Source: Thermoprotei archaeon (GTDB taxonomy: Archaea; Thermoproteota; Thermoprotei; Thermoproteales; B15-G16). Taken from it: DNA of 64,000 bases. Both the position numbers and the translations under genes were made by a program. The stretch lies in assembly GCA_003649205.1 (NCBI GenBank), contig QMRC01000002.1:146770-210769 (forward strand), in the 5' to 3' direction. Of this stretch, positions 11,559 through 38,294 are shown piece by piece. The notes below the pieces were generated by a model. That model was given only the letters and a program-made list of their open reading frames with translations, made no database searches and had not been told where the DNA came from. Each line of letters starts with the position of its first letter. The stretch's first letter is position 1.

Positions 11559-11651
11559 GGGGCCGTCGTCTAGCCTGGACTAGGATGCCAGCCTGGGGAG
11601 AAACCCCGCCCAGAACGCTGGTGAGCCCGGGTTCAAATCCCGGCGGCCCCA
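11559..11651 (+). tRNA. tRNA-Pro(GGG) with 17-nt intron at 37/38
   Basis: GGGGCCG...CGGCCCC-A acceptor; CCGGG-TTCAAAT-CCCGG T-arm; CCAGC-CTGGGG[AGAAACCCCGCCCAGAA]C-GCTGG; TATA-like CTAATAAATAT ~26 nt upstream. Confidence 0.88.
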
Positions 11652-11686
11652 GGGGAGTACCGGGGTCAAACCCGGACTCCCCGCCA
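11652..11686 (+). ncRNA. tRNA-minihelix-like element abutting tRNA-Pro
   Basis: GGGGAGT-A-CCGGG-GTCAAA-CCCGG-ACTCCCC-G-CCA: 7-bp + 5-bp coaxial stems, T-loop-like loop and 3' NCCA. Confidence 0.5.
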
Positions 11687-11703: not shown

Positions 11704-12909
11704 TTAATCTCTCCCCAGAAAGTCAATAGCTTGCCTCACGTGTCGTGCTAAGTCATCGAGACCAAATACTATACTAAGCCGCTGTAGTCTTTCAAGCCAC
11801 TCGACGTGATGTCTACTCGCCCGGAATTCAGCAAAATACTTCCTATACTTCTCTGAATGATAATAATGAACTCTTTCAGCTGGTACCTTAAGGAGGTTAA
11901 CTGCTAGCTCTTTGAACGGCTCTACCTGTCCTAGTCCTACACATCTTACAATGACGTACTTCTTGCCACACTTCCTCCTAACTAAATATATTCTAACTCT
12001 CTCCTGAAGTAATTTTCTCAAGTCATCTCGACTGAGCCCTACACCCTTGATAATCCTCAGTTTAGCATTTCGTCTTCTATGCCTCAACTCCATGAGATAG
12101 AGGAGACAGTTTTTGCGCATGTGCTCTATTGAGAATCTTATCCTGAAGTACCTACTTGGTCTCCAATTCTCTTTTATTTCACCTAGGGTGTAGTCTATGT
12201 ACTTCATTTCTTTGAGTTTCTCTAAGACCTGTAGGATAGGTCGTAGCTTATGTTCACTACATCTAACGTAAATTGAGCAATGTACCCAGCCATGTTTATC
12301 CATGCGTACATTAACCGTGCCATCTCCGTCTACTAGACCTGATAAGAATTCAGCAACTTCATAGTAGGTATTAGGAAAGCAAACAACTCCTCTTCTTAGG
12401 CAGGTCACGATAGTAGTAACTTCTGGATCTTTAACTCTTAGGTACAACATGGGTTTTACTTCGTGAGGTAACACGTGTATACATCCAAGTCTAACATAGA
12501 GTCTTGGGTATGTCTTCAGTAGTATTGCACAGAGCTCCTTGTCTGTACTAGCAAAGCGTATGTATGGTCCCAACACAGAACCATCGGTCAGTGCTAATCC
12601 CACTCTATACCATACGTTGCTCATTGAAGTATTCTTTACAGTGATTTCCTCAACGAACTTACTGAATTCTCTCCTTAAGTACACTACCCTCTCATTGATG
12701 CAGTACCTAGCACTACGTGTCCTCGATCTAGCCACTATAACCAAAGAAGGTATATGTTTTATCTGCTCTCTCAGTTCTCTCGCTTTTTGCTTTAGTTGTT
12801 CTAGCTCTTCTTTGGTGAAGTATCTGTGTATTAACTCCATTACTTTGCTATGTAGTTTCTCTACGAATTCATCTATTTCATCGTACTTGATGGTGATTCT
12901 CGATTTCAC
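11704..12909 (-). CDS. LAGLIDADG homing endonuclease-like protein, free-standing
   Basis: Two motif copies: WYRVGLALTDGSV and EFLSGLVDGDGTV. Confidence 0.75.
   Translation of the reverse strand: MKSRITIKYDEIDEFVEKLHSKVMELIHRYFTKEELEQLKQKARELREQIKHIPSLVIVARSRTRSARYCINERVVYLRREFSKFVEEITVKNTSMSNVWYRVGLALTDGSVLGPYIRFASTDKELCAILLKTYPRLYVRLGCIHVLPHEVKPMLYLRVKDPEVTTIVTCLRRGVVCFPNTYYEVAEFLSGLVDGDGTVNVRMDKHGWVHCSIYVRCSEHKLRPILQVLEKLKEMKYIDYTLGEIKENWRPSRYFRIRFSIEHMRKNCLLYLMELRHRRRNAKLRIIKGVGLSRDDLRKLLQERVRIYLVRRKCGKKYVIVRCVGLGQVEPFKELAVNLLKVPAERVHYYHSEKYRKYFAEFRASRHHVEWLERLQRLSIVFGLDDLARHVRQAIDFLGRD

Positions 12910-38173: not shown

Positions 38174-38294
<121 letters not shown>

Follow-up and report, generated by a model that had tools for sequence, protein, structure and literature searches.

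The hairpin insert at tRNA-Pro

The window, that is, the whole 64-kb stretch of DNA that was analysed, carries on its forward strand a tRNA-Pro(GGG) gene at positions 11559-11651 (Rfam RF00005, 48.1 bits). Its base 73 is the A at 11651, and its anticodon loop appears, from the sequence, to be interrupted by a 17-nt intron at about 11599-11615. This gene was not called by ARAGORN. Another tRNA gene of the window, 118 bp long and located on the reverse strand at 38177-38294, includes a long GC-rich hairpin intron.

Base 73 of tRNA-Pro(GGG) is directly abutted by an element at 11652-11686 that reads GGGGAGT-A-CCGGG-GTCAAA-CCCGG-ACTCCCC-G-CCA. It is composed of a tRNA-like minihelix inserted between base 73 and CCA on the same strand (11652-11683; a 7-bp stem, an A, a 5-bp stem, a GTCAAA loop and a G) and of a CCA at 11684-11686, with perfect pairing in both stems. 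The inner part, CCGGG-GTCAAA-CCCGG (11660-11675, forward strand), resembles a T arm, the ordinary T arm in this genome (G000) being CCGGG-TTCAAAT-CCCGG, a sequence common to 29 of the 46 tRNA matches. The hairpin is predicted to fold with -26.3 kcal/mol (z = -4.5), a stability equalled by none of 200 shuffled sequences. A descriptor of the minihelix (7-8 bp, 0-3 nt, 5 bp, a loop of 6-7 nt, N and CCA) scanned over both strands of the window returned 11652-11686 as sole match, and nothing was returned from 60 Markov sequences. The sequence, coordinates and stem geometry given for the hairpin in the original prediction are thus exact, as attested by sequence check, fold and descriptor scan. An intrinsic terminator is ruled out, as no T-run follows the hairpin. 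No Rfam family other than tRNA provides an identity for it, the weak mascRNA matches covering the tRNA itself.

A sister copy at tRNA-His

The 11-mer GGGTCAAACCC occurs twice in the whole G000 genome, once in the tRNA-Pro element and once at position 65 of contig C14. The latter occurrence belongs to a sister hairpin (C14:51-86) placed directly after the 3' half of a tRNA-His(GTG) gene, at a contig edge of this draft assembly, and reading GGTTGGGG-CAC-CCGGG-GTCAAA-CCCGG-CCCCAACC-G-CCA. The T-arm-like hairpin is identical in both copies, the inserts being 32 nt long at tRNA-Pro and 36 nt long at tRNA-His, and four of the seven pairs of the outer stem differ, all four on both sides, so that pairing is compensated. 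Although two sequences are few, four compensated pairs would hardly be expected unless a helix had been selected for or copied. The ordinary tRNAs of G000 vary in the same manner, their T arm being constant and their acceptor stem variable. The original prediction would have been undermined by a loss of stem pairing or CCA in relatives. Both are kept in the single sister copy, while the element is found in no other genome examined.

In G000, CCA directly follows base 73 in 40 of the 46 tRNA matches, or in 38 of 43 distinct genes once three mirrored tRNA duplicates on contig C3 are left out. As most tRNA genes of this genome encode CCA at this place, the CCA at 11684-11686, which precedes a pyrimidine-rich trailer, very probably belongs to tRNA-Pro itself and is most likely its native 3' CCA, displaced by the hairpin. 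The pyrimidine fraction of the trailers after the hairpin CCA reaches 0.69 and 0.63 in the two copies versus a mean of 0.62 in the other trailers of G000, levels that are weak evidence alone since 5% and 15% of random stretches of the window attain them. Judging from the sequences, the parsimonious reading would be that base 73 was separated from base 74 by 32 or 36 inserted nucleotides, rather than that the hairpin is a separate CCA-ended gene.

Two further tRNA genes of G000 (C1:29038, L033; C12:49812, L096) display TCA in place of CCA and have a common trailer start, TCATTTACTCATT. Contig C3 (291,428 bp; L108) is a perfect inverted repeat about its exact midpoint, 145715, which is the 3' end of a tRNA-His gene, with at least 1,215 bp checked per arm. 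This mirror symmetry is very probably an assembly fold-back, part of the genome then being counted twice.

A LAGLIDADG family living in and beside tRNA genes

On the reverse strand, at 11704-12909, lies a homing-endonuclease-like gene of 401 aa with a PF14528 (LAGLIDADG_3) match above cut-off (E 1.4e-6), which ends 17 nt beyond the hairpin CCA at tRNA-Pro. A homologue of 399 aa (31% identity) starts about 200 nt after the tRNA-His hairpin, on the same strand as that hairpin. The 401-aa protein includes the motifs GLALTDGSV (about 104-112) and LSGLVDGDGTV (about 189-199), in which the acidic residues D109 and D194/D196 are invariant across four family members, and its single-sequence structure model is uninformative, with a pLDDT of 37. 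The motifs and acidic residues are those of a LAGLIDADG protein, so that homing endonuclease activity is predicted.

Profile searches for relatives led back to tRNA genes in several archaea. In G021, the relative stands about 150 nt beyond the 3' end of a tRNA-His gene (identified by eye) that lacks an encoded CCA, and no hairpin is present there; in the order, a number of other tRNA-His genes do have an encoded CCA. In G033 (G033:C218; L172/L327), it resides inside an intron of roughly 760 nt in a tRNA-Ala-like gene, for which ARAGORN, when long introns were allowed, gave an intron of 763 nt. G383 and G389 (L332, L331) also have a LAGLIDADG gene within introns of tRNA-iMet, as apparently do, by reading of the flanks, G350, G362 and G292 (L328, L329, L330). 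These genes of tRNA-iMet introns occur in either orientation and in archaea of three different families.

Within G000, a third family member ends 95 nt upstream of tRNA-Val. Three of the four members there are thus separated from a tRNA by no more than about 200 nt, an arrangement with a chance probability of about 3e-6. Exceptions to this association are the fourth member (G000:C6:88043-88672; L338), with no recognised tRNA nearby, and the relatives of G086 and G075, which are included in long frames and are probably inteins. That the family is mostly resident in or beside tRNA genes and linked to the insert loci is thus well supported. By close similarity, the endonuclease was found in no phages, viral contigs or genome contigs. 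Upstream of the fourth member, many short GC-rich hairpins are observed. In G043 (L156:1222-2130), the 5' end of a tRNA-Asp gene contains the stop codon of a LAGLIDADG-containing ORF.

Distribution of the hairpin

Searches for the hairpin relied on its sequence or on loci already collected, and none of the relatives compared belongs to the same family as G000, which, from its relatives and its tRNA introns, would be placed near Thermoproteales. The hairpin core, with at most one mismatch, gave 14 matches outside G000 among 398 genomes of the phylum, none of them beside a tRNA. No hairpin insert was found in the tRNA-Pro flanks of relatives nor in the visible tRNA-His flanks, and in a descriptor scan of 1.6 Mb of loci from relatives, the tRNA-Pro and tRNA-His copies were the only ones to abut a tRNA 3' end. 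A pattern joining a tRNA T arm to a hairpin yielded eight matches in viral contigs, none of which is a minihelix abutting base 73; among the matches listed for genome contigs, there was no such minihelix and no archaeal case. Many of the matches in these two sets (for genome contigs, among those listed) are terminators after bacterial tRNAs. This distribution means that the arrangement at 73/74 is either of recent origin or restricted to a lineage with poor sampling. The literature searched, itself incomplete, yielded no account of a sequence inserted between base 73 and CCA. To our knowledge, all archaeal tRNA interruptions are introns or splits, spliced at bulge-helix-bulge motifs.

Proposed insertion by homing and removal by end processing

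The hairpin may well have been inserted at the target site of a homing-endonuclease element that makes use of tRNA 3' ends, and be tolerated through end processing and CCA re-addition. This explanation is favoured because the same 73/74 site is occupied in two tRNA genes of a genome in which 38 of 43 encode CCA directly, and because homologous LAGLIDADG genes are present at both loci and have relatives in or near tRNA genes. Against it stand the missing hairpin at the tRNA-His of G021, the failure of the searches described above to find the insert in any other genome, and the contig-edge location of the tRNA-His copy. The original prediction had listed both an element inserted at the tRNA and a processing signal among its options, and these two gain from the clean insertion at 73/74, the compensated second copy and the association with a tRNA-linked endonuclease family.

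The endonuclease would recognise an uninterrupted junction formed by the tRNA 3' end, CCA and the trailer. By disrupting this target, the insert would protect the allele carrying it, as introns do for intron-encoded endonucleases, and repair of cut alleles would copy the hairpin and the endonuclease gene together. On general grounds, a stable helix abutting base 73 is an unpromising substrate for RNase Z, yet it is shaped like an RNase P substrate, with an acceptor/T-arm helix and RCCA. As the hairpin has this shape and mimics such a helix, RNase P would be expected to cut at its 5' edge, so that base 73 would become the last base of the tRNA. Alternatively, the insert could be removed by an RNase Z cut after base 73; on CCA-less precursors, the archaeal enzyme retains base 73 in the tRNA and requires no more than an acceptor stem (PMC7479834). 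In either case, the lost CCA would be restored by the CCA-adding enzyme and splicing would be unnecessary. An archaeal CCA-adding enzyme gene is present in the G000 genome (E 2.6e-144), so that a lost CCA can be re-added, and a search for type T RNase P RNA, run without positive control, gave no match. More tentatively, the two loci could exemplify a splicing-free residence of a mobile element, in which an endonuclease-linked mimic of the top half of a tRNA, lodged at 73/CCA, is cut off by tRNA-end enzymes before CCA is restored.

The hairpin could also be a host device, an encoded processing signal by which RNase P (or RNase Z) sets the 3' ends of two tRNAs, with the endonuclease genes being chance neighbours or later arrivals. 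In geometry it agrees with the 12-bp helix of acceptor and T arm that tRNA-end enzymes recognise, the changes between the two copies are compensatory, and plant mitochondrial t-elements are cleaved by RNase P and RNase Z and CCA-tailed while remaining uncharged (PMC11658184). However, such a device would serve only two of about 43 tRNA genes, most others simply encoding CCA, both copies adjoin the same endonuclease gene family, and the hairpin was not found in the relatives checked, all of which makes a host cassette unlikely. A true intron at a new position, 73/74, would have to be excised by the splicing endonuclease at a relaxed motif and ligated by RtcB, its endonuclease gene having moved outside. 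Indeed, relatives of the endonuclease reside inside tRNA introns, and hairpin-forming introns shorter than 50 nt occur in rRNA genes of Thermoproteales (PMC4496867). The insert boundaries nevertheless speak against it, as at their exact positions the central helix would have one to three of four pairs and the flanking helices zero or one pair, in either topology. Under strict criteria, no bulge-helix-bulge was found there, though of five control tRNAs only two yielded their canonical intron in this test, so that a relaxed motif could have escaped it. An intron at this position is considered improbable.

In archaea, integration of mobile elements at tRNA ends is common (PMC3293823), and the hairpin equals a tRNA devoid of its D and anticodon arms; it might be what is left of a tRNA having lost both arms, or of a viral or plasmid genome that had integrated at the 3' end of the tRNA, without function today. 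Such an origin is quite improbable. Within the window, the only further occurrences of 15-mers from the 3' end of tRNA-Pro are in the two other tRNA genes, and no direct repeat of this end marks a far border, apart from tRNA genes with the same T arm. Moreover, neither acceptor sequence (GGGGAGT or GGTTGGG) belongs to any listed tRNA, and the compensated stems argue against decay. The original prediction also proposed a naturally encoded CCA-ended minihelix, possibly aminoacylatable, and a stable RNA of this kind, charged or acting as a guide, would fit the CCA-ended helix of classical minihelix size. This proposal does not hold well, as the CCA is explained as that of the tRNA gene, the outer stems differ between the two sites and the element is found in no relative; a functional minihelix is accordingly very improbable.

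If the homing-linked insertion is correct, tolerance of an insert via end processing and CCA re-synthesis would be a solution separate from splicing, and RNase P would have in the hairpin a natural minihelix substrate of the acceptor/T-arm type, encoded in a genome. The insertion would also tie a LAGLIDADG family to tRNA genes as its habitat, which bears on the spread of tRNA introns in Thermoproteota.

Comparison with known systems

Several known systems share part of these features. The archaeal tRNA and rRNA introns carrying LAGLIDADG homing endonucleases, many of which are known in Thermoproteales along with small hairpin introns (PMC4496867), involve the same endonuclease superfamily and likewise interrupt an essential RNA gene, including by a small hairpin insert. 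Here, in contrast, the insert stands outside the tRNA body, at 73/CCA, with no bulge-helix-bulge and with the endonuclease gene outside the insert.

In phage T4, the free-standing homing endonucleases of the seg and mob groups perform "intronless homing", SegB being located between tRNA genes (PMC2988022). As in the present loci, the endonuclease gene lies beside, and not inside, the associated gene, and tRNA regions are included. Nevertheless, the protein is here of the LAGLIDADG rather than the GIY-YIG or HNH type, the setting is an archaeal chromosome, and a structured RNA is inserted at the tRNA end.

By its shape only, the hairpin would correspond to a t-element, i.e., a tRNA-like fold directly abutting an RNA end. 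In plant mitochondria, such a structure can be cut by tRNA-end enzymes, which defines the end of the neighbouring RNA. The same may hold here, but in the present case the upstream RNA is a tRNA and the hairpin is devoid of D and anticodon arms. Finally, the minimal substrates of RNase P and the acceptor/T-arm minihelices display the same coaxial helix of 7 + 5 bp with a CCA end (PMC4033280). Most of those were built in the laboratory or serve as models of evolution, whereas the hairpin described here is encoded in a genome, and its loop counts six nucleotides (GTCAAA) instead of seven.
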